A DNA stretch of 64,000 nt from Hyphomicrobium sp. Lineage in GTDB: Bacteria > Pseudomonadota > Alphaproteobacteria > Rhizobiales > Hyphomicrobiaceae. Made by a program: the position numbers and the translations under genes. The stretch spans positions 1-64,000 of the forward strand of contig JABFRT010000046.1 in assembly GCA_013141015.1 (NCBI GenBank). The letters run 5' to 3'. Under the pieces are notes generated by a model. The model was not told the DNA's origin and made no database searches. It was given only the letters and a program-made list of their open reading frames with translations. Positions 47,547 to 63,111 of this stretch are shown piece by piece (the stretch's first letter is position 1; every line of letters starts with the position of its first letter).

Positions 47547-47636
47547 GGAGAGGTGGCGGAGTGGTCGATCGCGTCGCACTCGAAATGCGAAGTACGGGCA
47601 ACTGTACCGGGGGTTCGAATCCCTCCCTCTCCGCCA
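47547..47636 (+). tRNA. tRNA-Ser (anticodon CGA)
   Basis: The acceptor arm GGAGAGG pairs with CCTCTCC, followed by discriminator G and encoded CCA (47634-47636). The anticodon stem CGCA/TGCG holds loop CTCGAAA, giving anticodon CGA for UCG codons. A long variable arm makes it a class II tRNA, 90 nt. A tyrosine integrase gene starts 147 bp downstream, so its 3' end is the likely integration target. Confidence 0.96.
47613..47636 (+). other. predicted attachment site (attL) in the 3' end of tRNA-Ser
   Basis: P4-type integrases usually recombine in the 3' half of a tRNA gene, leaving a copy of the T-arm and acceptor end at both junctions. The integrase lies immediately downstream here. I found no second copy of GTTCGAATCCCTCCC within the window, so the other junction lies outside it. 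Exact core boundaries are not known. Confidence 0.5.
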
Positions 47637-47782
47637 AGTGCCCATTTCATCTGATTTCAACCTGTCTCGAAAAATACAAAAAAGACAAATAAATACAATT
47701 GATTGGTCGTGATTCTTGGCTTAACCTCGCGCGTACGGTCTCCCTGCATCCCAGATCAATTGGGGAAATGCTGGAGGCAAAG

Positions 47783-49036
47783 ATGGCTGGCACCCGGGTT
47801 GAGAAGAAGCTTTCGGCAGTCCGCGTCAAAACACTTAAGGCTCCTGGCAAGTATGAGGACGGCGGTGGTCTCCGTCTGGTGATCACATCAGGCGGGACCA
47901 AGTGCTGGGTCGTGCGGGTTAGCCTATCCGGCAATCGCATTGAGAGGGGTTTGGGCTCTTACCCGGACGTCTCGCTGGACGACGCTCGTGAGGCAGCCGC
48001 TACGTTTCGGAAAGCGGCTGGGAGCGGCATCGATCTGCGCGCCGAGGAGAAACAAAAGGCGCTGGCCTCGACGTCGTTCCGCGACATGTTCAAGATCACG
48101 CTGGCGCAGCGCGAGAAGCAGCTCTCGAACGCCAAGCATTTGAAGCAGTGGACCTCAACCATGGAGGCCTATGTCTTCCCGAAAATCGGCAATGTTCCGG
48201 TGGCGGACGTGACGACGGGGCAAGTACTTGAATTGCTGACACCCATTTGGTTCGATAAGGCGGAGACGGCCAAGCGGGTATTGCAGCGGATGGAGCTGGT
48301 TTTCAAGTCGGCGATTGTTCGAGGTATTCGCACAACGGCGTCCCCTTGCACGGGCGTCGCCGATGAGCTTGGAACGAAGCATCGGGCGCCGAAGCATCAT
48401 GCCTCAATGTCCTGGCCAGACGTTCCAGACTTCATCGCGTGGCTCCAACAAAGATCACGGTCCGGGCTACCGTTGGCGACCTCGCTAGCGATGGAGTTTC
48501 TCATTCTGACGGCAACACGGAGTGGTGAAACGAGGGGCGCAGTTTGGCAGGAATTCGATATTGAGGGCGCAACGTGGACGATTCCGGCGGAACGCATGAA
48601 GGCGAGGGATGCCCATCGTGTTCCGCTGAGCAAGCGCAGCCTGCAGATCCTCAAAATGGCGAAGAGCCTAAACCCGGATAGCGACCTCGTTTTCCCGTCG
48701 CGGAACGGCACTGTGCTGTCCGACATGACTTTCACAAAACTTCTGCGCGACGAGAGGCTCGACGTAACTGCTCACGGTTTCCGGTCGAGCTTCAAGGTGT
48801 GGGCGTCGGAAAGCGCTAAAGTTCCGCACGAAGTGTCCGAAGCCGCCCTGGCGCACAGTCTGGGCAGCAAGGTTGTTGCGGCCTATCTCAGAACCGATTT
48901 TCTCGCCGAGCGTCGGCCCCTGATGGAGGCCTGGTCAGGGCATTGTTTGGGGAATGCCAAACGGCAGGTGAAAAAGCCTAGCGTACCAGACGCTTTCGAT
49001 GTCACGACCGTGTCTAGTCAATGGCAAGGTCAATGA
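47783..49036 (+). CDS. tyrosine recombinase, P4-type integrase
   Basis: This enzyme integrates and excises the island at the adjacent tRNA. The 417-residue protein has an N-terminal DUF4102-type arm-binding domain (VKTLKAPGKYEDGGGLRLVI), a core-binding domain and a catalytic domain with Arg246 (LTATRSGE), His331/Arg334 (HGFRSSF), His358 (LAHSLG) and Tyr368 (AAYLRTD). All catalytic residues are present, so it may be active. ATG 47783 has GGAGG 6 bases upstream, better than ATG 47768. Confidence 0.95.
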   Translation: MAGTRVEKKLSAVRVKTLKAPGKYEDGGGLRLVITSGGTKCWVVRVSLSGNRIERGLGSYPDVSLDDAREAAATFRKAAGSGIDLRAEEKQKALASTSFRDMFKITLAQREKQLSNAKHLKQWTSTMEAYVFPKIGNVPVADVTTGQVLELLTPIWFDKAETAKRVLQRMELVFKSAIVRGIRTTASPCTGVADELGTKHRAPKHHASMSWPDVPDFIAWLQQRSRSGLPLATSLAMEFLILTATRSGETRGAVWQEFDIEGATWTIPAERMKARDAHRVPLSKRSLQILKMAKSLNPDSDLVFPSRNGTVLSDMTFTKLLRDERLDVTAHGFRSSFKVWASESAKVPHEVSEAALAHSLGSKVVAAYLRTDFLAERRPLMEAWSGHCLGNAKRQVKKPSVPDAFDVTTVSSQWQGQ

Positions 49037-49137
49037 TGTGTCTCGCTCAGTGGCCTGGCCGCTCGTCGGTACTTTGCTGACATCGGGATTGTCGCCGGAC
49101 GATAGGACTTAGTGCGGTCGCGGACAAAAGAGGTGGG

Positions 49138-50127
49138 TCAAAGCAGAGAAGCGGGCGATCCACGCGCGAATTCTCGCCACTCTGTAGGCGATCTTCCGGT
49201 CCAACGCCGAAAGGCCCGTGTGAAATGCGCCAGGTCGCGGTAGCCCAGATCGAATGCGATCTCGGTGATCGAGGCTCCTCGGTCTCCAAGCAGCGATTTT
49301 GCCCGGCGTAGTAGGGCATCTTCCTTTAAACGCCGGAAAGAAGTTCCTTGCTGTTCGAGAAGCCGCTGTAAAGACCGGCTGCTAATGTCGAGCTTGGCAG
49401 CTACCCAATCGACGCGCGGGTAGCCTTCATAGAGCGCGAGATCCGTCACTGCGGCGATCATCGCAAGGGCATCGTCCTGCTCCGGGACTGCTGGCTCTAC
49501 AGGCGCGTTGACTTCCAACCTCGCGCACGAACTTCCTGCCCGTCCACAGTTCAGCAGCGCCTGGTCGAATTCGAAAGAGGTGACAGCGTGGCCAACTGAA
49601 ATATTCGTACCGAAGACCTGCTCAAGTCCGGCCCGCGGCGCTCCGGCTGAGAGTGTGGTCATCACGACCTCAGGACACCAGCGTTTCCCAACATATGTCC
49701 GCACGGTATCAATCATGTAGCTGATGCCGAGGAGCTCATTGTGAAGGCGACCATCGGTTTCCGGCTCAAGGAAGTCGATTGACCAGCGGACCAAAGAGCC
49801 GCGCCTCTGGAGCGACAGCCCGGTCGATGTTTGCAGCATGACGTTCAGGCCTGCATGCCCCCGCTCGATGGCTTGAAGCAGTGTTTCCGCCGAGCACACC
49901 CAAGCACCGAATTTGCTCAACTCCTTCATTCTCACGAGCTGGCCAAGGCGTGCCCCGAAGCAGGCATCACCTGTCTCGCGCGCCGCCCGCTCGAGAAATT
50001 GGAACTGCGCGCGCAAGGGTATTACGATCTCGGGCTTCTCAAGGAGAACGAATGGTAGGTCAACGTCGCGCAAGATGTCAACGGCACATTGAATCTGACC
50101 CAGGTTGGTTGATGTCGGCAACGTCAA
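49138..50127 (-). CDS. AraC family regulator, 5' end replaced by an IS21 insertion
   Basis: AraC/XylS regulator with an N-terminal arabinose-binding-like (OruR-type) sensor domain and a C-terminal double helix-turn-helix (AKLDISSRSLQRLLEQQGTS ... ITEIAFDLGYRDLAHFTRAF). The native reading frame continues into the IS element at 50075. The missing first 12 codons lie across the IS at 52146-52181, where they read MTSQGGSVTRVL and join exactly onto RDVDLPFVLLEKPE. The present frame opens with TTG 50127 inside the IS end, giving about 17 foreign residues. It could still be expressed from an IS-borne start. The original target was probably the divergent cupin gene. Confidence 0.85.
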   Translation of the reverse strand: MTLPTSTNLGQIQCAVDILRDVDLPFVLLEKPEIVIPLRAQFQFLERAARETGDACFGARLGQLVRMKELSKFGAWVCSAETLLQAIERGHAGLNVMLQTSTGLSLQRRGSLVRWSIDFLEPETDGRLHNELLGISYMIDTVRTYVGKRWCPEVVMTTLSAGAPRAGLEQVFGTNISVGHAVTSFEFDQALLNCGRAGSSCARLEVNAPVEPAVPEQDDALAMIAAVTDLALYEGYPRVDWVAAKLDISSRSLQRLLEQQGTSFRRLKEDALLRRAKSLLGDRGASITEIAFDLGYRDLAHFTRAFRRWTGRSPTEWREFARGSPASLL

Positions 50128-50143
50128 CCTGACCCACCTCTCG

Positions 50144-50180
50144 TGATCGTCGTTGGTCCCGCGCGCGGGACCAACGACGA

Positions 50181-50183
<3 letters not shown>
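50144..50183. repeat. 40-bp perfect palindrome at the istB stop codon
   Basis: TGATCGTCGTTGGTCCCGCG (50144-50163) is followed without a gap by its exact reverse complement (50164-50183). The right end includes the istB stop codon. It can fold as a long hairpin at the 3' end of the istAB mRNA or as a cruciform, and may block readthrough into or out of the element. Confidence 0.9.
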
Positions 50184-52066
<1,883 letters not shown>

Positions 52067-52145
52067 CTCCTTCTCGGAAGCGCCACCTTGAACGGTGGGT
52101 CAGATTCGAGTTGCCGCCTGGGTCAGTTTTGCACTGCCGATGACA

Positions 52146-52181
52146 CAAGACGCGGGTGACCGAGCCGCCCTGGCTTGTCAT
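52146..52181 (-). pseudogene. detached 5' end of the AraC regulator gene
   Basis: Twelve codons, MTSQGGSVTRVL, from ATG 52181 down to the IS junction. Removing the IS and one target copy joins the frame perfectly to the regulator at 50070. With the IS in place, this start reads a few codons into the element and cannot give the regulator. Confidence 0.88.
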
Positions 52182-52374
52182 AAAGCCGGCGATAGGTCCC
52201 AGCGAGCTGGCGCGTGTAAACCCTGAGAGACGCGCCGCCATGCCACTTGCCGATCTTGCCGATACCTGGCGCAAAATGGCAAGCGCGGTTTCTGGCAACA
52301 AGTCACATTGGCGTTACGATCTGCTTCCCCGGCAAACGTCCGACGTATGCTGGCTCAAAGGACTAAGGAAACAC

Positions 52375-52830
52375 ATGACCACGCTGCCGTTTGATACTCA
52401 AAATATTCGCTGGAACAAGATCGAAGGCATTGACCATTTGGCTTATCATATTCTCGCGGTGGACGAAGCCAAACGCATCGTCGACATTTTGTTCAAGTTC
52501 GATGCCAATGCGAAGATTGTCTTACACCGTCATAAGGCCGACTACATCACTTTGGTCTTGCAGGGTGAGCTTCGGATTTACCGGCCAAACGGCACGCTCA
52601 AGGAGATCCGTCCAGTGGGGAGCTATGTGACCGGCAGTGCTGACGGTGAACCACATACCGAAGGCGGCGGGGAACAGGACGTCATTGCATTCTTCAGTAA
52701 CAGGAATGTCCAGAACGTCGTGTACGAAATACTGGATGAAAGTCTGAACACGATTGCGACTTTCGGGATTGCGGAGTTCAAGGCGCTTCTCGATGCGCAA
52801 GTGCCGCAGCCAACCACCATCGTTTCATAG
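52375..52830 (+). CDS. cupin-domain protein (Dke1-like dioxygenase fold)
   Basis: The 151-residue protein forms a single cupin barrel. Candidate metal ligands are His51 and His53 (VLHRHKADY), then Glu65 region and His94 (DGEPHTEGGG), with the segments ITLVLQGELRIYRPNG and EIRPVGSYV. The resemblance is to acetylacetone-cleaving-enzyme/2,4'-dihydroxyacetophenone-type cupins, but the substrate is not predictable. ATG 52375 with AGGAAACAC is preferred to longer frames. It is divergent from the split AraC gene, its likely former regulator; 194 bp separate the two native starts. Confidence 0.8.
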   Translation: MTTLPFDTQNIRWNKIEGIDHLAYHILAVDEAKRIVDILFKFDANAKIVLHRHKADYITLVLQGELRIYRPNGTLKEIRPVGSYVTGSADGEPHTEGGGEQDVIAFFSNRNVQNVVYEILDESLNTIATFGIAEFKALLDAQVPQPTTIVS

Positions 52831-53305
52831 GACGCAATCGCAATGTGGTGCGGCGATAACTTATTTCCAAAACTGGTCCGCCGTCCCAGCCTGCTCAGCA
52901 GTCAAGTTGGTTGCAGGCGGTCGAGGATTGGCCGGACAAATTTCGAAAGCACTGAATCTAGCTACAAGTCACAGATGACGATCGCCGAACGTGCTCCGGA
53001 TACTGCTCATCATTTTTAAGATTTAGTATCCGAGAACCTACGGCTGCTCGCCGTTCGAATGCGGCGGCCTAGTCCTTGGAGCCATGGTCTGCCTCGGCCC
53101 AAGTCCGGACTTGGCCGCTTGAATGCCGAGTTCGTCTAAATCTATCGTGCCCTGCGTGCACGTCCCACTATGCCAGATCGTTCGATACAAGCACCGTTGT
53201 AGCGGTAGTGCCGCAACTTCATCATTTACGTCTTCTTAACTCACAAATTCGAAACGCTTAAGCGATAGGACTGACGCTGAACATTTTGTGCAGGGCGTAC
53301 ATCAC
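52831..53305 (+). promoter_or_regulatory. intergenic region before the seven-gene operon, with a 16-bp perfect palindrome
   Basis: This is about 475 bp without a supported gene. CCAAGTCCGGACTTGG at 53099-53114 is a perfect palindrome about 190 bp before the operon and could bind a dimeric regulator. The 80 bases before the operon are AT-richer (ACGTCTTCTTAACTCACAAA) and may contain the promoter, but I cannot place clear -35/-10 boxes. Confidence 0.4.
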
Positions 53306-54586
53306 GTGTCCATTTTACCGGCCATCGTCCGCAACAGGCTCGAAGTTTTGCGGGCCCTGCTTGATCCGAGCCTTGCCGCTGAGCGCTTGCGGCCGCGACT
53401 TGATGAGCTTCCCAAATCCTTGCGATTGGAAGCCCGCGCCAGTGCTGCGCAATTGGAGCGGCTATGGTCGCGGCTAAGCGCGACAGCCCCCAAGGCTAAA
53501 GCGGTCAAAAAAATTCTTGCCGATCCCACCGCCATCGCGGATGCCGAAACCTTTAGCAAGAACATCGAAAACTACGCTGGCACTATTAAGGTGCCATTCG
53601 GCATCGCCGGGCCGTTGCGCATTAACGGTCTGCATGCCCATGGCGACTACTTCATTCCACTCGCCACCACAGAAGCCGCACTCGTCGCCTCATATGCGCG
53701 CGGCGCCCAAGTGGCAACAAAAGCAGGCGGTGTCAGCGCCGCACTTCTGTCTGAGGGCGTGCTGCGCAGCCCAGCCTTCATTTTCGCAGATCTGCTGGAG
53801 GCCGGCGCGTTCGTCAACTGGATCGCGCACAACGAGGAAGCGCTGAAGGCGGCAGCCGAGAGCACCACGCGCTACGGCAAACTGTTCTCGCTCGAACCCT
53901 ACATAGACGGCGAGATCGTGTTCCTGCTTTGCCGCTATTCGACCGGCGATGCCTCGGGGCAAAACATGGTGACGATCGCCACCGAAGCGCTGTGCCGGCA
54001 CATTGCCAGTGCCTGCCCAATAGCGGCGCGGCGCTGGTACATCGAAGGCAATTTCTCCGGCGACAAGAAGGCCACCTTCCTCGGGCTATTGACCGGGCGC
54101 GGCCGCAAGGTCACAGCCAGCATCATCCTACCCAAGGCCCACATCGAAAAATACCTGCGCACCACACCCGGCGAAATGCTCGACTATGCCCGCGTTGCCA
54201 ATCTCGGCGCCCGGTTAAACGGCCAGATCGGCGCACAGGGTCATTATGCCAACGGGCTCGCGGCGTTCTACATCGCAACTGGCCAGGATGCTGCTTGTGT
54301 CGCTGAATCCGCAGTTGGATCGACACGCATGGAAGATCGCAGCGGCGATTTGTTTATGTCCGTGACAATGCCCAACATCCTCGTCGGCACGGTTGGCGGC
54401 GGCACCGGGTTGCCAAGTCAGAATGCAGCACTTTCGCTGCTCGGTCTTCAAGGTCCAGGTCATGCCGCGGCACTCGCCGAAGTCACCGCCGCTCTATGCC
54501 TGTGCGGCGAGATTTCCATCATGGCGGCCATCGCATCGGGGCAGTTTACCCATGCCCACGGCAAGTTGGCGCGAGGTGTATCTTGA
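53306..54586 (+). CDS. class I HMG-CoA-reductase-like enzyme
   Basis: HMG-CoA reductase reduces HMG-CoA to mevalonate with NADPH. The 426-residue protein has the class I motifs ENYAGTIKVPFGIAGPL, TGDASGQNMV and GTVGGGTGLPSQNA. The four catalytic positions are conserved: Glu123 (ATTEAAL), Lys254 (SGDKKAT), Asp328 (ATGQDAA) and His418 (THAHGK). The QN usually after the Asp is missing (AACVAES), so the substrate may differ. GTG 53306 with AGGG upstream is preferred to GTG 53288. No other mevalonate-pathway gene is present. First gene of a seven-gene operon. Class I enzymes are unusual in proteobacteria. Confidence 0.9.
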   Translation: MSILPAIVRNRLEVLRALLDPSLAAERLRPRLDELPKSLRLEARASAAQLERLWSRLSATAPKAKAVKKILADPTAIADAETFSKNIENYAGTIKVPFGIAGPLRINGLHAHGDYFIPLATTEAALVASYARGAQVATKAGGVSAALLSEGVLRSPAFIFADLLEAGAFVNWIAHNEEALKAAAESTTRYGKLFSLEPYIDGEIVFLLCRYSTGDASGQNMVTIATEALCRHIASACPIAARRWYIEGNFSGDKKATFLGLLTGRGRKVTASIILPKAHIEKYLRTTPGEMLDYARVANLGARLNGQIGAQGHYANGLAAFYIATGQDAACVAESAVGSTRMEDRSGDLFMSVTMPNILVGTVGGGTGLPSQNAALSLLGLQGPGHAAALAEVTAALCLCGEISIMAAIASGQFTHAHGKLARGVS

Positions 54587-55524
54587 CACGTCGCGAGCCG
54601 GGTGAATCGAACGCGCCGCTACTGCGCCGGCTGTGGACCTATCAAGCCGAGCGCTTTCCCGTATTCAAAACCGCAACCCTCCTCGCGGCCTTCAGCGCCG
54701 CGAGCATCAACGTCTCAGCCATGCTTGCGGGGCGCGAACTTCCCGGATTGGCAACCTACGCCGCCGCCTTCACGGTGCTCTTCATTTTGTTTTTTCAGTT
54801 GCGTGCCTGTGATGAGGTGAAAGACGCCAGCGATGACCAGCGCTATCGCCCGGAGCGGCCGATCCCGCGCGGACTGGTGTCTCAGCGATTGATCACCGGC
54901 ATTGCCGTTGTGCTGGTCCCTGTGGCGATCCTCGCGGCCTGGGCGTTATCGCCGTGGCTGCTTCTTCCCTTGGCGGCGGTGTGGCTTTGGCTGGCTTTGA
55001 TGACTGCGGAATTCGGCGTGCCCAGATGGCTGAAGGCGCGGCCGATGCTATACCTTGTCTCGCACATGTTGATCATGCCGCTGATTGATTTATTTGTCAC
55101 CGGTTGCGAGTGGCTGACCCGCAGCGGTATGCCGCCCGCAGGCTTGTGGCTGTTCCTGGCGTTGAGCTTCGCAAATGGCTGTGTCATCGAAATCGGCCGG
55201 AAGCTCTACGCGCCGCAGAATGAGCGTCCTGGCGTGGAAACCTACACGGCACTGCATGGCGTCAACCGCGCCACAGTCATGTGGGTCGCCTGCCTGACGG
55301 TCAGTTTGTCATTACTTGCCGGCGTCGGCTTTGCCGTCTCGGCACCGAAGTCCATCATGGCCGCAGGGGTGATCGCCTACGCTGCCGTCACGACAATTGC
55401 GTTGCGCTTCCGTGCCACTCCTAACTCCGAGACGCAGAAGGCCGTCGATATGGCTGCTGGAATGTGGGTGTTCGTTTGCTACATGTCGGCTGGCTTCCTG
55501 CCGCTTCTCGCGAAGGGCTATTGA
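54583..55524 (+). CDS. UbiA family prenyltransferase
   Basis: Membrane enzyme that transfers a prenyl group from a diphosphate to an acceptor. The 313-residue protein has about eight membrane helices. The first Mg-binding motif is a DExxDxxxD variant (Asp77-Glu78...Asp81...Asp85, then RYRPERPIPRGLVS). The second motif region reads EIGRKLYAPQNERPGVETY (203-221) and is acidic but not canonical. The start is probably TTG 54583, overlapping the HMGR stop as TTGA. Members with 'EIxRKxxAP' have no assigned product that I know. Confidence 0.86.
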   Translation: MTRREPGESNAPLLRRLWTYQAERFPVFKTATLLAAFSAASINVSAMLAGRELPGLATYAAAFTVLFILFFQLRACDEVKDASDDQRYRPERPIPRGLVSQRLITGIAVVLVPVAILAAWALSPWLLLPLAAVWLWLALMTAEFGVPRWLKARPMLYLVSHMLIMPLIDLFVTGCEWLTRSGMPPAGLWLFLALSFANGCVIEIGRKLYAPQNERPGVETYTALHGVNRATVMWVACLTVSLSLLAGVGFAVSAPKSIMAAGVIAYAAVTTIALRFRATPNSETQKAVDMAAGMWVFVCYMSAGFLPLLAKGY

Positions 55525-55526
55525 AC

Positions 55527-57980
55527 ATGGCCGACGGCATCTATTTTCCAAACGAAGCAACAAATGTGGAGCTGGTTGGCGGCAAGGCCGCGGCGCTGGC
55601 GCGGTTGATCAAGCTTGGATTCGATGTGCCGCCATTTTTCGCAATTGATCCCGCGACCGTCAATCCCGCTATTGCGCTCGATCTCGGCGACGCCCTGTGC
55701 CGGCTTGGCGGTGGGCCTTATGCCGTGCGTTCGTCCGGCCGCGAAGAAGATGGTGCTGCCCACTCACATGCCGGCCAGTTCTTGAGTGTATTAAACGTGC
55801 CTGCCGCCGATGTTGCCGCCGCCGTCCGCCGCGTATGGGAATCCGGCCAGACCGAAAGCCTCAAAGCTTATCGCGCCTCGCGCGGCCTTGACCCGCAAGG
55901 CGGCGCACCCGCCATCGTCGTGCAGCGCATGGTGCCAGCGCGTGCCGCAGGCGTCGCGTTTTCTGCCGATCCTGTCTCTGGCCGCCGCGACCGCATCGTT
56001 ATATCGGCAACCGGAGGGCTCGGTGACCGCCTTGTTGGTGGCGAAATCGATGGCGAGCAGTACATGGTCGATGCCCGAAGCGGCAAACTGATTACGGCGC
56101 CGCCAAGCGAAACGCCGGTTGCGCTGTCACTGAATGATGTGGCGGCAGTGACCGCTTTGGCGCAGCACGTTGCCACCAAGTCCGGAACGCCTCAAGATAT
56201 TGAGTGGGCGTTCGACGGTGATCGCCTCTACCTTTTGCAGGCCCGCGCCATCACAACCGCGTTACGCGCCGCTCCCAACGCCGATACAACGATCACCATT
56301 TTCGACAATTCCAATATCGTCGAGAGCTACCCAGGCTTCGTCTCGCCGTTGACCTTCAGCTTCGCGCAATATGCTTATGCCCGTGTTTACCGCGCGTTCC
56401 TGGCGGTCTGCGGTGTCGATCAAAGTACCATCCGCGCCAACACCGCGACGCTTGAAAACATGCTCGGCCGCATTGATGGCCGCGTCTATTACAACCTCAT
56501 CAACTGGTACAGGTTGCTGGCAATGTTGCCGGGCTTCAGCCTAAACCGCGGCCACATGGAAACCATGATGGGCGTCGGCGAGCCATTGCCGGGAGACATT
56601 TCCGATGCGCTGGCACCACCGCCTGCCAAGGGCGTCGCGGCGGTCCGTGAATGGGCGCGCGTCGCCCGCATGGTGGGCAAACTCACATTTGAAGCTGTGC
56701 GTTTACCGCGCACGATCAACCGCTTTTATACCCGTCTCAACGCCGCGTTGGCCACCGAGCGGTCAGTCATCGGCAAAATGAATTTGAGTGAACTTGCCCA
56801 CTACTACAGGGGCATTGAGGCAACGCTGCTTGATCGCTGGGATGCGCCGCTCATCAACGACTTCCTGTGCATGATAGCCTTCGGCGGCTCGCGCAAACTG
56901 ACCGAGCGCTGGCTTGGCGACGCCGGGATTGCACTCCACAACGACGTCATGATCGGCCAGGGCGACATCATCTCTGCCGAGCCGCCGCAGCGCATCGCCC
57001 GCATGGGCCGGTTGATCGCCGGCGATTCCGGTTTGATCGACGCACTTGCCCGCGGCGACCGTGCAGCCTTGTCTTCAAATCCCGGGCTCGCAGCGGAGGT
57101 CGCTGCCTACATCGCCAAGTTTGGTGACCGTTGCACTGAAGAATTAAAACTCGAAAGCATTACGCTGGAAGAAAATCCTTCGCCGCTTCTGGCGTCAATA
57201 GCGGCGGCCGCTCGCCAGCAACCGGCTGCACCAAAGCGTGACGGCGGTGGCATCGGGCGTCTCGACGCCCTGCTTTCAGGCAAACCCATCAAGCGCGCCG
57301 TATTGAAGCGCGTGCTCAGTTTCGCAAAAGCAATGGTGCGGAACCGCGAAAACTTGCGGTTCGAGCGCACGCGCATATTCGGCCAGGCCCGGCGCGTGTT
57401 CCTTGCCATCGGCAAGCAGTTGCACGCCTATGACAGGCTCGACGATCCACGCGACATCTACTTCCTGACCGTGCAGGAAATCCTTGGATCGATTGAAGGC
57501 TTCGGCCTTGATCGCGATCTGAAGGCGCTGACCGCAATGCGCAAACAGCAACGCGAGATGGATCTCCTGGCCGCTTATCCAGGCGACCGCATATCGATTT
57601 CCGGTGCCATCATCACGTATGAAGCTGCTGCGGTGACGCCCGTTGCGGCTGCGACCGGTGCCCACCAGTTCAAGGGCACCGGCTGCTCGGCCGGCGTCAT
57701 AACCGCAAAGGCCCGCGTGATCCGCGATCCGCTGATCGAGCATTTGGAGCGTGGCGAAATTCTGGTCGCTCAACACACCGACCCCGGCTGGATCGCGCTG
57801 TTCACCAATGCTTCCGCCATCGTCGTCGAGCGCGGCAGCCTGCTGTCTCACTCAGCCATTGTCGCGCGCGAGCTGGGCATCCCCTGCGTCGTCGGCCTCA
57901 AGGGGGCAATGACCGAGATCACATCCGGCGACCGGCTTGAAGTCGATGGGGCAACCGGTGTCGTCAGGAAGCTCGCATGA
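55527..57980 (+). CDS. ATP-dependent dikinase, rifampin-phosphotransferase-like architecture
   Basis: The protein has 817 residues. The N-terminal PEP-synthase/PPDK ATP-binding domain (about 1-260) has VGGKAAALARLIKLGFDVPP, YAVRSSGREEDGAAHS, GVAFSADPVSG and DIEWAFDGDRLYLLQARAIT. A ~450-residue middle domain has no recognised signature. The C-terminal swivelling domain holds the phosphohistidine, His775 (GSLLSHSAIVARELGIPCVV). There is no PEP-binding barrel, so this is not a PEP synthase. The order ATP-grasp / acceptor domain / His domain is that of rifampin phosphotransferase. It probably moves the ATP beta-phosphate to an alcohol made in this pathway. Confidence 0.85.
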   Translation: MADGIYFPNEATNVELVGGKAAALARLIKLGFDVPPFFAIDPATVNPAIALDLGDALCRLGGGPYAVRSSGREEDGAAHSHAGQFLSVLNVPAADVAAAVRRVWESGQTESLKAYRASRGLDPQGGAPAIVVQRMVPARAAGVAFSADPVSGRRDRIVISATGGLGDRLVGGEIDGEQYMVDARSGKLITAPPSETPVALSLNDVAAVTALAQHVATKSGTPQDIEWAFDGDRLYLLQARAITTALRAAPNADTTITIFDNSNIVESYPGFVSPLTFSFAQYAYARVYRAFLAVCGVDQSTIRANTATLENMLGRIDGRVYYNLINWYRLLAMLPGFSLNRGHMETMMGVGEPLPGDISDALAPPPAKGVAAVREWARVARMVGKLTFEAVRLPRTINRFYTRLNAALATERSVIGKMNLSELAHYYRGIEATLLDRWDAPLINDFLCMIAFGGSRKLTERWLGDAGIALHNDVMIGQGDIISAEPPQRIARMGRLIAGDSGLIDALARGDRAALSSNPGLAAEVAAYIAKFGDRCTEELKLESITLEENPSPLLASIAAAARQQPAAPKRDGGGIGRLDALLSGKPIKRAVLKRVLSFAKAMVRNRENLRFERTRIFGQARRVFLAIGKQLHAYDRLDDPRDIYFLTVQEILGSIEGFGLDRDLKALTAMRKQQREMDLLAAYPGDRISISGAIITYEAAAVTPVAAATGAHQFKGTGCSAGVITAKARVIRDPLIEHLERGEILVAQHTDPGWIALFTNASAIVVERGSLLSHSAIVARELGIPCVVGLKGAMTEITSGDRLEVDGATGVVRKLA

Positions 57981-59074
57981 CCTCACAAATCGCCAGCAAA
58001 GCCGCGTTCGACCATATCCGCTATGCACAGTTGTGGGAGGATGCCGACGTCCTCGTTGATGCGCTGCAGGGAGAGTGCGGCCGCACCTTCGTCTCGATCT
58101 GCTCGGCGGGCGATAACGCGCTCGCTCTGCTGACGCTCGACCCCAGCCGCGTAATTGTTGTTGATCTCTCGCCAGCCCAGATCGAATGCATGAAACTACG
58201 CATCGCCGCCATGCGCGCGCTCGATCATTCAGCTTATCTGGAGTTGCTTGGCGCCCGGCCGTCGGCACGGCGCGGCGAGCTTCTGGATATTGTCTGCGCG
58301 ACAATGGATGGAATTTCACAAGCGTTTTGGACAGCACAGCGTAACGCTGTCGAACACTATGGCGCTGGCGGTGCCGGAAAGTTCGAGCACTATTTCCGCA
58401 TCATGCAGACGCGATTGCTGCCACTCGTACACAATCGCGCAACGATCAACGATGTGTTCGTTTCGCGCGAACCTGATGCACGCCGCCGCTTTTACGACAC
58501 CCGCTGGAATAACTGGCGCTGGCGGCTCTTGCTCAAGGCCTTCTTTTCGCGCTTCGCCATGGGCCGGCTCGGCCGCGACCCCGCCTTCTTCGATCACGTC
58601 GAGGGCAGCGTTTCCGATCATGTGGCACGCCGGATCGTTCATGCCGCCGTGACGCTCGATCCTGCTGGCAATCCCTATTTGCATTGGATCTTAAAGGGCA
58701 GCATGGGCCCCGCCCTGCCGCTCGCCTGGCGGCCTGAGAACTATGATCTGATACGCTCACGGCTCGATCGTCTCGACGTGCGCTGCGGCTCGTTCGAAAG
58801 CCTGATCAGGGAAGGCGTGCGCGCCGACGGCTTCAACCTGTCGGACATCTTCGAGTACATGGACATGGCGACATTTGCCGCTGTCTATGCGCAGTTGCTT
58901 GAGACGGCCAATCCCGGCGCCCGCCTCGTCTATTGGAACATGATGGCGCCAAGACGTGTCCCTGGTGCACTTAACGGCCGCGTTGTCACCCGCACCGATC
59001 TTGAATCGCGCGGCAAGGCCATGGACAAGGCATTCTTCTATTCCGATTTCGTGGTCGAAGAGGTGCGCGGGTGA
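57977..59074 (+). CDS. DUF3419 protein, BtaA-like aminocarboxypropyl transferase
   Basis: BtaA moves the 3-amino-3-carboxypropyl group of S-adenosylmethionine onto diacylglycerol to begin betaine-lipid synthesis. The 365-residue protein begins FDHIRYAQLWEDADVLVDAL and has the SAM-binding motif SICSAGDNALALL, then VIVVDLSPAQIECMKLRIAA, with the later FNLSDIFEYMDMATF matching the family. Overlap with the preceding gene is 4 bases (ATGA). The acceptor could be a different alcohol or lipid here, since the usual partner methyltransferase BtaB is not in the operon. Confidence 0.85.
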   Translation: MTSQIASKAAFDHIRYAQLWEDADVLVDALQGECGRTFVSICSAGDNALALLTLDPSRVIVVDLSPAQIECMKLRIAAMRALDHSAYLELLGARPSARRGELLDIVCATMDGISQAFWTAQRNAVEHYGAGGAGKFEHYFRIMQTRLLPLVHNRATINDVFVSREPDARRRFYDTRWNNWRWRLLLKAFFSRFAMGRLGRDPAFFDHVEGSVSDHVARRIVHAAVTLDPAGNPYLHWILKGSMGPALPLAWRPENYDLIRSRLDRLDVRCGSFESLIREGVRADGFNLSDIFEYMDMATFAAVYAQLLETANPGARLVYWNMMAPRRVPGALNGRVVTRTDLESRGKAMDKAFFYSDFVVEEVRG

Positions 59075-60375
59075 GCATTGGCATCCAGCTCCTGCTCATC
59101 GCACTGTCGGTCGGCGGACTGCTGATCGCCATGGCCTGCGTGCATGCGCTCGCCCAACGTTTTAGCTGGCCGGCCGAACTGCAGCGTAAGTGCGTGCATA
59201 TAACTACCGGTCTCTACGCTCTTTCACTGCCGCTGACGTTCGGTGAAGCCTGGCCGGTATTGTTGCTGTGCGCCATTTCAGTTCTTGTCATGGGTCTGAT
59301 ACGGCTGCCGGCCTTCGCCAAGTCCGGTATCGGTTCTACCATCCATGGTGTTGCGCGCAAATCCTATGGCGAGATCCTGCTGGCGGTGTCAGTCGGCTTC
59401 CTGTTCTTCCGCTCAACCGGCAATCCGGTGTTGTTTGTGTTGCCGGTGCTGGTGCTGACATTTTCAGACGCAGCCGCGGCATTGACCGGCGTGCGCTACG
59501 GCCGGCGGTTGTTTGCTGTTGAAGAGGGCACCAAGAGCCTTGAAGGCGTGGTGATGTTCTTCCTCCTCACTTTCATTATCGCCATGATCACGCTGCTGCT
59601 GATGACGGAAGTTCCCAAGCACAACGTCATCCTGCTGTCTCTGATCGTCGCCGCCTTCGGTGCTCAGCTCGAAGCCGATAGCTGGCGTGGATTTGACAAT
59701 CTGTTCGTGCCGGTTGGACTTCATCTCTTTCTGCAAAACAATCTCGACATGCCGCCGCTCAGCTTGCTGGGCGGTGCAATGCTGTTCGTGGGCATTGCCG
59801 CTGGTCTGCAGCTGGCCGCGCCAAGCCTTGGCCTTACGCACCATGCCGCCCGCGGTTATGGGGTATTGGCGTTTCTCATCCTGTCGGTAACGGCGCCGCA
59901 TAATGCCGTTCTGCCGCTCGCCGCATTCGTGGCCTTTCTCATCCTGCGCCGCGCCGAACCCGAAGCCAGCGATTATCCAGAACTCGATTTCCTGGCGGCA
60001 ATAGCTGGCACGGCTGTGCTTTGGCTATTTCTCGGCGAGTGGAGCGGCAACAACGCCATAAATCTCTACAATCTGACATTCGCCGGCGTCGCGACGATCT
60101 TTGCAACGCTTAACTTGCGCGGGCGACAACGCTTAGTGGCGCCGATGGCCGCCGTGGGGCTCGGCATCACGGTCTACAGTCTACAATGGGTGAATGCCAG
60201 CGACTCGCGCTGGATGCCGGCGTTTGCAGTGATGATCACAGTCAGTCTGGCGCTGTGCGTCGTGGTCCCCTGGTTGCGGCCGCATCTGTTCGAGACCCGT
60301 CGCGCGGCGAAGGCTTTTGCCATCGCCCTCGCCATGCCGCTTTTGGTCTTTGCATCGAAGGGTTGGATGACATGA
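59071..60375 (+). CDS. phytol/dolichol-kinase-like integral membrane protein
   Basis: CTP-dependent polyprenol kinases (dolichol kinase, phytol kinase VTE5) and CDP-diglyceride-type enzymes share this fold. The 434-residue protein has about 12 membrane helices. The first half carries the kinase landmarks ELQRKCVHITTGLYALSLPL, the RKSYGEILLAVSVGFLFF region, VLTFSDAAAALTGVRYGRR and GTKSLEGVVMFF. The second half is an extra membrane region of unknown role. GTG start overlaps the upstream stop (GTGA). It probably phosphorylates an isoprenoid alcohol. Confidence 0.8.
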   Translation: MSIGIQLLLIALSVGGLLIAMACVHALAQRFSWPAELQRKCVHITTGLYALSLPLTFGEAWPVLLLCAISVLVMGLIRLPAFAKSGIGSTIHGVARKSYGEILLAVSVGFLFFRSTGNPVLFVLPVLVLTFSDAAAALTGVRYGRRLFAVEEGTKSLEGVVMFFLLTFIIAMITLLLMTEVPKHNVILLSLIVAAFGAQLEADSWRGFDNLFVPVGLHLFLQNNLDMPPLSLLGGAMLFVGIAAGLQLAAPSLGLTHHAARGYGVLAFLILSVTAPHNAVLPLAAFVAFLILRRAEPEASDYPELDFLAAIAGTAVLWLFLGEWSGNNAINLYNLTFAGVATIFATLNLRGRQRLVAPMAAVGLGITVYSLQWVNASDSRWMPAFAVMITVSLALCVVVPWLRPHLFETRRAAKAFAIALAMPLLVFASKGWMT

Positions 60376-61229
60376 GTGAAACTCGCCCCGAGATCATGAA
60401 CAGTCACGGCGCGACTTGCGCGATTTATCGCGACGCACCGGTGTGGGACAATAAGCGCACGGCCGCCATTGGCAATTTTTCCTGCGATAGCGCCGGGGCC
60501 GGTAGTGAACTTTTGCAATCGGCCGTGCGCACGCTTTCAACCCAAGGATTCAACGCTGTAATCGGGCCGATGGACGGCGACACGTGGCACAAGTATCGCG
60601 TGATCTCAGAAAGCGATAACAGCGCGCCCTACTTTCTCGAGCCGGTGAGTGGGGCATTCGATTTCGCAGCCTTCAACGGCGCCGGCTTCAAGCCGATTTC
60701 GTCCTACGTGTCGGCCCGCGCCAAGGCCGAAGATGCTATCGGCGCGCCCGCGCCCGCTATTCCCGGCGTGACGATCTCGGCATGGGACGGCAAAAATGCC
60801 GATGCGCTTACCGGCGGAATGTTCGATCTATCGCGCACCGCCTTCACCGGAAACGCCTTCTACAAGCCGATCGAACGCGAAGACTTCCTCAAGCTTTACC
60901 AACCGATCCTGCCGGCAATCGATCCCCGTTTGGTGTTGTTCGCCCGCGCAGGCGGCACACTTGTTGGCTACCTCTTTGCTATTCCCGACCGTTTGCAAGG
61001 GCCAAAGCCTTCGACAGCCATCATCAAGACCTACGCCAGTGGCGTGCGCGGCGCTGGCCATATGCTGTTGGATGTGGCCCACCGCACAATCCGCGATCTC
61101 GGCTATAGCGACGTCATCCACGCCCTCATGCACGTCGACAACCCGTCGCGCGAGCGTAGCGCCCGCCATCGCGGCACGGTGTTTCGCCGCTACGATCTGA
61201 TGGGCCTCAATCTCGAAAAGCGCCGATGA
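60372..61229 (+). CDS. GNAT family acetyltransferase
   Basis: The protein has 285 residues. The first ~100 (NAVIGPMDGDTWHKYRVISE) form a degenerate GNAT-like half. The second half has the acetyl-CoA-type region IIKTYASGVRGAGHMLLDVA and ends with DNPSRERSARHRGTVFRRYD, typical of a subgroup of uncharacterised GNAT proteins. ATG 60372 overlaps the upstream stop (ATGA). It could acylate the amino group introduced by the BtaA-like enzyme, but this is a guess from context. Confidence 0.78.
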   Translation: MSETRPEIMNSHGATCAIYRDAPVWDNKRTAAIGNFSCDSAGAGSELLQSAVRTLSTQGFNAVIGPMDGDTWHKYRVISESDNSAPYFLEPVSGAFDFAAFNGAGFKPISSYVSARAKAEDAIGAPAPAIPGVTISAWDGKNADALTGGMFDLSRTAFTGNAFYKPIEREDFLKLYQPILPAIDPRLVLFARAGGTLVGYLFAIPDRLQGPKPSTAIIKTYASGVRGAGHMLLDVAHRTIRDLGYSDVIHALMHVDNPSRERSARHRGTVFRRYDLMGLNLEKRR

Positions 61230-62665
61230 ACCTGATCAATGCATTCGTTACAGAAGCTATGCTCAGACCGGATCAAAGCGCCGTCGTCGATGGCAAGGGA
61301 CGCTCGATTTCCTTTGGCGATCTAACGGCGCGTTCAAATTACCTTGCCGCAGCATGGCGCGACATTGGCATCAGACCCGGTGATCGCCTGCTGTTCGCCA
61401 TGAAGATCAGCATTGATCTATACATCGGGCTCGCCGCCGCCTGGCGCATCGGTGCCGTTGTGGTCTTTCCCGAACCCGCGCTCGGCCTCAAAGGCCTTCG
61501 CCACGCCGCGCGCGTAACAAAGCCTAAAGCGTTCGTGTCGTCGGGCTTCTACCGTCTGCTTGGCTGGGCTGTGCCTGAGTTGCGCGCACTGCCGCTGCGG
61601 CTGACACCGCGGGCCCGCAGTATCGCAGATGTGCCGGTTGAAGACCTTGGGTTGCAGCATCCAGCGTTGATATCCTTCACCAGCGGCTCCACCGGACTTC
61701 CCAAGGCGATCGTCCGCTCGCACGGTTTTCTGGCCGCCCAGAATGCCCGCGTCGCCGAGCTGCTGCGGCCTTCCCGCGAGGGAGAGATCGACCTTGTGGC
61801 ATTCCCTGTGTTCGTGGTTGCCAATCTCGCCTTGGGCGTCACCTCTGTGCTGCCCAACTGGAACGTGCGCAAACACGACTCGGCCAGCGCCAAGTCCATC
61901 GCCGCGCACATCACGCGCTATGGCGTCACCCGGGTGCTCGTGCCACCCTCCATCTGTGAACGCCTCGCAGCGTTGCAGCCAATGCCGCCCGTTTCAGCTG
62001 TATTCACCGGCGGCGGACCGGTATTTCCCGGTCTCTTGAAGCGGCTCGCAAATAAATTGCCAGCAGCGGATATCGTCGCCGTTTACGGCTCGACCGAGGC
62101 GGAACCCATTTCGCATCTCCACGGACGCGATATCGGCGCCGAAGATTGGGCGGCAATGGATAGCGGCGCGGGATTGCTCGCCGGCCGCCCGATACCGCAA
62201 ATCGAACTGCGCCTCTTAGACGATGAAATCATCGTCACGGGAGACCACGTCAACACCGGCTACCTCGACAGCAGCCAGGATGCCTCCAACAAGCTCAGGA
62301 TCGACGGAAAGATATGGCATCGCACCGGAGATGCCGGGCGGATCGACGCGCAAGGCCGCCTGTGGCTGCTCGGGCGGCATGACGCGCGTATCGGCACGCT
62401 CTATCCTTTCCCGGTCGAGGTCGCGGCGATGAGTTGGCCCGGCGTGCGCCGCGCTGCGCTGGTGCGGCGAGCAGGGCGCGCGGTCCTTGCCATCGAGGGG
62501 GCGCATGCGCACCAAGCCGAGTGGCAGTCACGAGCCGCCGAATTTGGCGGCATCGAAACGATTTGGATTGATGCCATCCCCCTGGATAGCCGGCACCGTT
62601 CGAAGGTCGATTACCCAGCTTTATTAGCAAAGCTGTCTGCAATGCCTCCGCCCCAGCAAGGCTAG
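61226..62665 (+). CDS. AMP-forming acyl-CoA ligase/synthetase
   Basis: ANL-family adenylating enzyme of 479 residues. The motifs are FTSGSTGLPKAIVRSHGF (A3), VYGSTEAEPIS (A5), WHRTGDAGRIDAQGRLWLLG (A7-A8), and a C-terminal SRHRSKVDYPALL whose Lys fits the catalytic A10 residue. It is shorter than most and its 'STEAEPI' motif recalls OleC-like ligases. The start overlaps the GNAT gene by 4 bases. It ends the operon; no carrier-protein gene is present, so the product is probably a CoA thioester or direct ligation. Confidence 0.9.
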   Translation: MNLINAFVTEAMLRPDQSAVVDGKGRSISFGDLTARSNYLAAAWRDIGIRPGDRLLFAMKISIDLYIGLAAAWRIGAVVVFPEPALGLKGLRHAARVTKPKAFVSSGFYRLLGWAVPELRALPLRLTPRARSIADVPVEDLGLQHPALISFTSGSTGLPKAIVRSHGFLAAQNARVAELLRPSREGEIDLVAFPVFVVANLALGVTSVLPNWNVRKHDSASAKSIAAHITRYGVTRVLVPPSICERLAALQPMPPVSAVFTGGGPVFPGLLKRLANKLPAADIVAVYGSTEAEPISHLHGRDIGAEDWAAMDSGAGLLAGRPIPQIELRLLDDEIIVTGDHVNTGYLDSSQDASNKLRIDGKIWHRTGDAGRIDAQGRLWLLGRHDARIGTLYPFPVEVAAMSWPGVRRAALVRRAGRAVLAIEGAHAHQAEWQSRAAEFGGIETIWIDAIPLDSRHRSKVDYPALLAKLSAMPPPQQG

Positions 62666-62880
62666 AAATTGCTGCATCGGGCCAGTTTTTCCCATCCGGC
62701 CGGATACAGGTGGCGGTCGGTTTGCCTCAGAGAGCTGACGCTAGCGGCCCATTTGCAACAACTGCATGAAATACCGCAAGCTAAATTGACGGCATTTCCT
62801 ATTTCCCAATTGGCAATTCCTGCAAATTCTAATAGGCAATGTATTGCACGTTAATATCCTGCAATCTGGAGATATCAAAA

Positions 62881-63111
62881 ATGCTACTCGACTCCCAAAT
62901 CCCGTCTGAGGGAATCGCGCTCCCCTCAGCCCCCGCTCTTGAGCGGCTGATCAGCCGCAGAGAGACACTCATTCTCATCGGCATCTCCAACGCCACTCTG
63001 TGGCGCTGGATCAAAGCCGGTCGATTTCCGGCGCCGCTCAAGATTGGCAAGAAGAAAGTCGCCTGGCGGTCGTCGGTCCTAGCCGAGTGGATTGCGCGGC
63101 GCACGACGTAA
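62881..63111 (+). CDS. AlpA family transcriptional regulator/excisionase
   Basis: The 76-residue protein has the Phage_AlpA helix-turn-helix: LISRRETLILIGISNATLWR, WIKAGRFPAPLKIGKKKVAW. AlpA proteins activate integrase genes or act as excisionases of P4-type islands, which fits the integrase at 47,783. ATG 62881 has GGAG about 10 bases upstream; an earlier in-frame start is unlikely. Here it lies 14 kb from the integrase, with the operon between them. Confidence 0.9.
   Translation: MLLDSQIPSEGIALPSAPALERLISRRETLILIGISNATLWRWIKAGRFPAPLKIGKKKVAWRSSVLAEWIARRTT

Follow-up and report, generated by a model that had tools for sequence, protein, structure and literature searches.

The window studied here, a stretch of 64,000 nucleotides from a Hyphomicrobium genome, raises the question of whether seven adjoining genes of different enzyme families serve a single pathway and, if they do, what that pathway makes. 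A first reading of the sequence alone had answered yes to the former and had proposed an isoprenoid or acyl lipid with an amino-acid head group for the latter. The layout on which it was built, seven genes on one strand with five 4-base overlaps and one 2-base gap, is borne out by the coordinates and the junction letters (TTGA at 54583, ATGA at 57977, GTGA at 59071, ATGA at 60372, ATGA at 61226, and TGA-AC-ATG at 55522-55529 between genes 2 and 3). The TTG start of gene 2 at 54583 is the choice of that earlier reading, and an in-frame ATG lies upstream at 54496. The features that concern us are the following.

47547..49036, + strand: tRNA-Ser, then a phage-type integrase, the probable entry point of an island (ARAGORN; PF22022, PF13356, PF00589)
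53306..54586, + strand: gene 1, HMG-CoA-reductase-like oxidoreductase (class I) with an altered HMG pocket (PF00368, E 1.1e-106)
54583..55524, + strand: gene 2, UbiA-family membrane prenyltransferase (PF01040, E 2.1e-10, 40.8 bits)
55527..57980, + strand: gene 3, PEP-synthase/Rph-like dikinase (PPDK_N, 6.4e-44; PEP-utilizers, 3e-26)
57977..59074, + strand: gene 4, DUF3419/BtaA-like, predicted aminocarboxypropyl transferase (PF11899, E 5e-55)
59071..60375, + strand: gene 5, polytopic membrane protein, perhaps a lipid kinase of the CTP type (no Pfam match)
60372..61229, + strand: gene 6, tandem GNAT N-acyltransferase (by predicted structure; no Pfam match)
61226..62665, + strand: gene 7, AMP-forming acid ligase, PRK09274/OleC-like (PF00501, E 1.6e-41)
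62839..63111, + strand: AlpA-type regulator directly downstream of the operon (PF05930, E 2e-11)

Conservation and spread of the block

Gene order was compared in the best 80 of 508 confirmed relatives of gene 4, and what follows on order and neighbours refers to these 80 loci. Genes 1 to 7 stand in the same order in 72 of them, and the remaining eight run off the end of the locus, i.e. the order is invariant in all 72 uncut loci. The clustering is far beyond chance, because the same order recurs in 72 of the best 80 and the other eight are merely cut; the co-occurrence that the sequence-only reading had suggested looking for is thus found. In 70 of the 72 loci each gene gives a single unbroken match covering 70% or more, with no internal stop. 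Under a rule demanding both a start and a stop, no more than 42 of 81 loci retain the full set, and gene 2 retains only 49 rows including the window, the excluded rows being absent from the residue counts given below; by Tblastn gene 2 is present in 75 of the 80 loci, with stops no further than 18 residues from the alignment ends.

A search with gene 3 gave matches in five of 397 genomes of the window's taxonomic order, and all five hold the seven genes, in order. Values of dN/dS lie between 0.04 and 0.28 wherever measured (seven close pairs), and the pairwise distances of the seven proteins are correlated with r of 0.83-0.95 in a mirror-tree comparison, a correlation that includes shared species history. 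We conclude from the order kept in 72 of the best 80 loci, from the five genomes with the whole block and from the low dN/dS that the block is co-inherited and forms one pathway, the latter as had been claimed from the sequence alone, and we regard it as nearly certain that the seven genes belong to one pathway.

The hosts among these 80 loci are Alphaproteobacteria and two Halomonas, whose copies are sister to those of Chelativorans in the trees of genes 1, 3 and 4. Many marine and soil bacteria are among the carriers, and Roseovarius nubinhibens ISM and Thalassococcus halodurans are two of the hosts. At least 72 public genomes carry the whole set, and many more may do so, given the 508 confirmed relatives of gene 4. 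In the nearest relative found, a Hyphomicrobium bin (L026), genes 1, 2 and 6 match in pieces only, which reflects either assembly error or decay.

It could be argued that the genes are only neighbours, of unrelated function, on a mobile element. Such a view would suit the apparent island in which the operon lies in this Hyphomicrobium genome, and the fact that a close copy of gene 4 occurs in none of the 21 other genomes of the genus. It is nevertheless contradicted by the alignment with the nearest relative, which covers the operon and excludes the flanks, by the invariant order in the 72 uncut loci and by dN/dS values of at most 0.28, and we find it hardly credible. The best explanation is rather a horizontally moving, co-selected unit. 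A repeat of the tRNA-Ser end was not found on the 126-kb contig. A role in anti-phage defence was considered and rejected, PADLOC giving no match for any of the seven genes, and four stretches of viral contigs that matched the gene 4 pattern proved not to include a relative.

A reductase relative with an altered HMG pocket

The catalytic residues Glu559, Lys691, Asp767 and His866 (human numbering, mapped through the printed 1dq8 alignment with a chain numbering offset of 421) are kept in all 70 gene 1 sequences, as are R590, D690, K691 and K692 of the HMG pocket. The position of human Ser684, however, is Glu, and that of Lys735 is Ala, in the same 70 sequences, whereas the one mevalonate-operon sequence used as a control retains both Ser and Lys. 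A study of statin complexes describes a salt bridge between K735 and the carboxylate of the HMG moiety, and lists Ser684 as an HMG-contacting residue (PMC9500038). Gene 1 scores 317.4 bits against NCBIfam TIGR00533, under the cut-off of 441.8. The HMGR of Ruegeria pomeroyi was rejected as a counterpart of gene 1, being 61% identical to the class II enzyme of P. mevalonii according to PMC12292504.

HMG-CoA synthase and diphosphomevalonate decarboxylase were found in none of the 19 host genomes examined, which led us to reject a mevalonate pathway for these hosts; mevalonate kinase reaches its cut-off in none of the 19 (two weak matches fall below it), and DXR is present in 15. From the Glu at Ser684, the Ala at Lys735 and the lack of a mevalonate pathway in the 19 genomes, it follows that the CoA thioester reduced by gene 1 is probably not HMG-CoA, in agreement with the earlier proposal of a reductase acting on a CoA thioester. 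We consider it likely that this protein is not an HMG-CoA reductase. Since R590, D690, K691 and K692 are kept, an HMG-like acid may, to judge from these residues, still be the substrate.

These residues, together with the intact catalytic set, would also suit a quite different hypothesis, in which gene 1 would be a true HMG-CoA reductase after all, supplied with HMG-CoA by the breakdown of leucine, while the ligase would activate mevalonate and the GNAT would add the mevalonyl group to an amine. The model for such an activation followed by mevalonyl transfer is provided by SidI and SidF, enzymes of siderophore synthesis in fungi, and mevalonate is a beta-hydroxy acid of the kind on which the OleC family, to which the ligase is similar, acts. 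We think that this hypothesis is unlikely, given the replacement of Ser684 and Lys735 in 70 of 70 sequences and their retention in the control.

The six other genes

The acid ligase (gene 7) keeps its P-loop Lys K160 and C-terminal Lys K460 in 77 of 77 rows; its best NCBIfam model is NF006754 (PRK09274), below cut-off, followed by olefin beta-lactone synthetase. The structure predicted for gene 6, a tandem GNAT fold with a CoA loop, bears out the earlier assignment to that family. Gene 4 covers positions 3-382 of the 385 of PF11899, i.e. a full-length DUF3419, and is 24-29% identical to the DUF3419 proteins of relatives over nearly the full length (29-37% in partial matches); no homologue of solved structure was found by sequence.

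Gene 2 passes the PF01040 cut-off (40.8 against 34.2 bits) and keeps the first Asp-rich motif (D82, D86, D90) in 49 of 49 full-length rows. The second Asp-rich motif of UbiA prenyltransferases is DxxxD, from which gene 2 deviates in all 49, having ExxRK instead (E208, R211, K212). Gene 3 consists of an ATP-grasp domain, a middle domain and a C-terminal phosphohistidine domain, with His775 in 74 of 74 ungapped rows. Its NCBIfam kin is NF004881, with a score below the cut-off, and its PDB matches are entries named phosphoenolpyruvate synthase, 5fbs being the best.

The earlier kinase call for gene 5 is weakly supported. The near-invariant motifs RKxxH and DN, which we take to be typical of the phytol/dolichol kinase clan, and a weak CdsA fold match of the N-terminal half would suit a kinase; on the other side, fold matches are weak overall, and a CTP-transferase or lipid-kinase family is matched by none of 33 members in Pfam and none of 34 in NCBIfam. 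When plasmids were searched for kin of gene 5 that bear a name, the hits were the operon and a single further match, at E 2.

What the operon may make

Taken together, the families suggest the following scheme, in which every substrate and the order of the steps are our inference. The gene 7 ligase would activate an acid, and the gene 1 enzyme would make a primary alcohol by reducing some CoA thioester, though not HMG-CoA. The membrane protein of gene 5 and the dikinase of gene 3 might convert this alcohol into a diphosphate, or else phosphorylate the acceptor, after which the UbiA protein would transfer the chain, be it prenyl or alkyl. The BtaA-like enzyme would attach an aminocarboxypropyl group derived from SAM, the tandem GNAT could acylate its amine, and in some hosts the product may be modified further by a P450 and a sulfotransferase. 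As written, and in full, this scheme is doubtful. The best explanation for the gene set is a lipophilic small molecule with an amino-acid-like group, and a lipid or isoprenoid seems to us the likelier form of it; that the block is one pathway whose product, a lipid or isoprenoid, carries an aminocarboxypropyl group, which is our main reading, we put at a probability of about 0.5.

Among the best 80 of the 508 loci, P450 genes lie near the operon in 23 and sulfotransferase genes in 14, which fits the tailoring of a small molecule. A further neighbour family, seen in 24 loci, was set aside as generic, since its members are a mixture of ABC ATPases; besides these three, no flanking family occurs in more than five of the 80. 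The P450 and sulfotransferase neighbours could also be invoked for a soluble specialised metabolite or signal in place of a membrane lipid, the dikinase and UbiA forming a module reused in other clusters. A plasmid of Streptomyces clavuligerus lends this some credence, for there a dikinase adjoins a UbiA-like protein in which the ExxRK motif is also found, near AfsA and ICMT genes. However, that UbiA-like protein reaches 19.6 bits where Pfam requires 34.2, no other family recurs in the flanks of more than five of our 80 loci, and the products of genes 2 and 5 have 8 and 10 hydrophobic segments, so we see a soluble product as a minority possibility.

That one operon combines a UbiA protein with a dikinase and perhaps a lipid kinase also recalls the salvage of an exogenous isoprenol such as phytol, the two kinases making the diphosphate for UbiA. 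This would leave no role for the reductase, the ligase, the DUF3419 protein and the GNAT, all kept with the others in the 72 uncut loci, and it appears to us very improbable.

The most far-reaching form of our main reading, a new class of membrane lipids with a CoA-ester-reduced chain, activated as a diphosphate, joined by UbiA, bearing an N-acylated aminocarboxypropyl head and hydroxylated and sulfated in some hosts, is tentative, with the odds clearly against it. To our knowledge, no HMGR-fold enzyme outside mevalonate chemistry and no pathway joining the UbiA and BtaA families was known before, and such a lipid would, if real, be the first case of each. The product that the genes predict could be found by lipid mass spectrometry. 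The sequence-only reading thus holds as to a single co-inherited pathway, the GNAT and, probably, a reductase of something other than HMG-CoA, and less well as to the gene 5 kinase. It had also known of no described pathway with this set: no description was found among the open-licence papers listed, and the UbiA and HMGR neighbourhoods mentioned in PMC12419801 are different from the seven-gene operon.

Comparison with known systems

With SidI and SidF the operon shares, by analogy only, a ligase, an acyltransferase and mevalonate-type chemistry; we know of no counterpart of its other genes in that system. Gene 3 resembles rifampin phosphotransferase and PEP-synthase-like enzymes (Rph, PigC, RedH) over most of its length, with the ATP-grasp and C-terminal phosphohistidine domains in common, but the NCBIfam matches shown for it fall below curated cut-offs. 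Gene 2 matches the NCBIfam model of the EboC-type UbiA proteins of the ebo cluster (E 2.4e-7), although it reaches 30.5 bits where the cut-off is 250. Gene 5 shares RKxxH, DN and the weak CdsA fold match with the phytol and dolichol kinases (VTE5, which works with VTE6, and Sec59), and differs from them in matching no family model and in having an extra C-terminal membrane half.

BtaA, the diacylglycerol aminocarboxypropyl transferase of betaine-lipid synthesis, has DUF3419 in common with gene 4 over the full length; the known enzyme acts on diacylglycerol and not on prenyl lipids, and gene 4 stands in a seven-gene block. Finally, gene 1 has the catalytic domain and the catalytic Glu, Lys, Asp and His of class I HMG-CoA reductases (human HMGCR and the enzymes of Streptomyces mevalonate operons), from which all 70 aligned operon copies differ at two positions, with Glu for Ser684 and Ala for Lys735. 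Gene 1 is thus a relative of HMG-CoA reductase that probably works outside mevalonate chemistry, and the case can be tested in genera of which members can be cultured.

Conservation of the seven genes

At the level of genome evidence, we consider it established that the seven genes of the Hyphomicrobium operon form one pathway. The features concerned are:

53306-62665, + strand: operon of genes 1-7 (HMG-CoA reductase (HMGR)-like, UbiA-family, PEP-synthase/Rph-like dikinase, DUF3419/BtaA-like, polytopic membrane protein, tandem GNAT, AMP-forming acid ligase)
47547-63111: apparent genomic island (tRNA-Ser, phage-type integrase, AraC-type regulator, two IS21-like ORFs, operon, AlpA gene)

When 84,980 species genomes were scanned with gene 4, at least 508 relatives were confirmed, and in 72 of the best 80 of these (gene 4 identity 59-81%) genes 1-7 lie in the same order and on the same strand; in the remaining eight, the absent genes fall past the end of the fetched locus. 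All seven were matched unbroken over at least 70% of their length in 70 of the 72 loci, with stops near alignment ends only, the two exceptions being a Hyphomicrobium bin (L026; genes 1, 2 and 6 in pieces) and L084 (gene 7 partially matched, close to the locus end). On a Roseinatronobacter plasmid, genes 2-7 keep their order (40-63% identity to the window), and gene 1 spans the record start.

A second search, with gene 3 at E 1e-150, was chosen because it avoids selection on gene 4. It matched five of 397 genomes of the window's order, and all five carry genes 1-7 in order; three are loci already in the set, and of the two new ones, L131 has several broken-frame genes. In the order of Roseovarius nubinhibens, gene 3 was matched in 14 of 292 genomes, centre genome included. 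The co-occurrence of the seven families in the same order, proposed as a check by the sequence-only reading, is borne out by the gene 4 loci and by the gene 3 matches in the window's order.

Pairwise distances of the seven proteins are correlated (r 0.83-0.95), to which shared species history contributes. In seven close pairs, dN/dS is 0.04-0.28 wherever measured (gene 1 in six pairs, gene 2 in five, genes 3-7 in all seven).

Mobility and distribution

The operon lies downstream of the tRNA-Ser and the phage-type integrase, and the AlpA-type gene follows it immediately; no far attachment repeat of the tRNA-Ser island was found on the contig. By eye, two island ORFs resemble IS21 istB/istA. The window and the closest relative in the set, the Hyphomicrobium bin, align at DNA level in the operon only. 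For genes 1, 3 and 4, midpoint-rooted trees group both Halomonas copies with Chelativorans copies as their sisters (support 99-100), a placement that argues for transfer of the block between classes.

At E 1e-40, gene 4 matched one of 398 phylum genomes, the window's own. Distant DUF3419 matches (best E 8e-24, identity 24-37%) occur in 35 of 59 genomes related to the window organism, and none of the other 21 genus genomes has a close gene 4 copy; within the genus, the operon is therefore accessory. The operon's DUF3419 gene is the only one in the window genome; 19 of the 21 other genus genomes have a distant BtaA-like one.

Gene 1 and the isoprenoid pathways of its hosts

Nineteen genomes with the operon were checked, 18 of them chosen among the 80 loci and one being that of the window. 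HMG-CoA synthase, diphosphomevalonate decarboxylase and, above cut-off, mevalonate kinase (two weak matches below it) were found in 0/19, a completeness value being at hand for the window genome only, so that absence in any single genome is no proof. An HMGR-family match is present in 19/19, split into two pieces in L026; in L096 it is joined by a further, dissimilar gene of the family (about 24% identity). DXR (TIGR00243) is matched in 15/19, the four without a match being L039, L047, L096 and L098, where a DXR-like enzyme may replace it.

In 70/70 copies of gene 1 (the window and 69 loci with a full frame), the catalytic residues are retained, Ser684 (human numbering) is replaced by Glu and Lys735 by Ala; the HMGR pocket residues listed in PMC3875450 include Ser684. 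An acidic substrate is possible for gene 1, because Arg590, Asp690, Lys691 and Lys692 are retained. In a rival reading, to which we give lower odds, gene 1 would produce mevalonate, and this would serve the ligase and GNAT as an acyl group. As for the reaction chain of the sequence-only reading, it is coherent and its reductase step has gained support, its substrates, step order and product being inferred.

Stand-alone HMGR-family genes of Vibrio and Photobacterium (L116:9001-10263, annotated HMG-CoA reductase; L117:10001-11272; L120:10001-11257), 49-51% identical to gene 1, have Asp in place of Ser684 and either Thr or Asn in place of Lys735, and may not be HMG-CoA reductases. On an Alteromonas plasmid (L118:3280-10041), T_hemolysin, AMP-ligase and SDR genes are followed downstream by an HMGR-like gene with Ala at Ser684 and Ser at Lys735; on a Sinorhizobium plasmid (L119:7417-12126), another, with Cys aligned to Lys735, is flanked by acyl-CoA carboxylase subunit genes.

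Neighbouring genes and comparison with known systems

Cytochrome P450 genes occur within the fetched flanks of 23/80 loci (one a 90-residue fragment), and sulfotransferase genes in 14/80, all 14 also with a P450. At least two P450 types are present (Pfam was run on one flanking sulfotransferase and two P450s); other families are each found in at most five loci, mixed ABC ATPases excepted. These neighbours would fit the tailoring of a small molecule mostly retained in the cell.

Among the matches listed in the open-licence literature, we found no published description of the seven-gene set. The HMGR of a complete Streptomyces mevalonate operon has both Ser684 and Lys735 intact. On a Streptomyces clavuligerus plasmid (L024:6532-11909), AfsA and ICMT genes are accompanied by a PEP-synthase-like dikinase adjoining a UbiA-like protein that shares the ExxRK motif of gene 2, which hints that the dikinase and UbiA-like enzymes act together.
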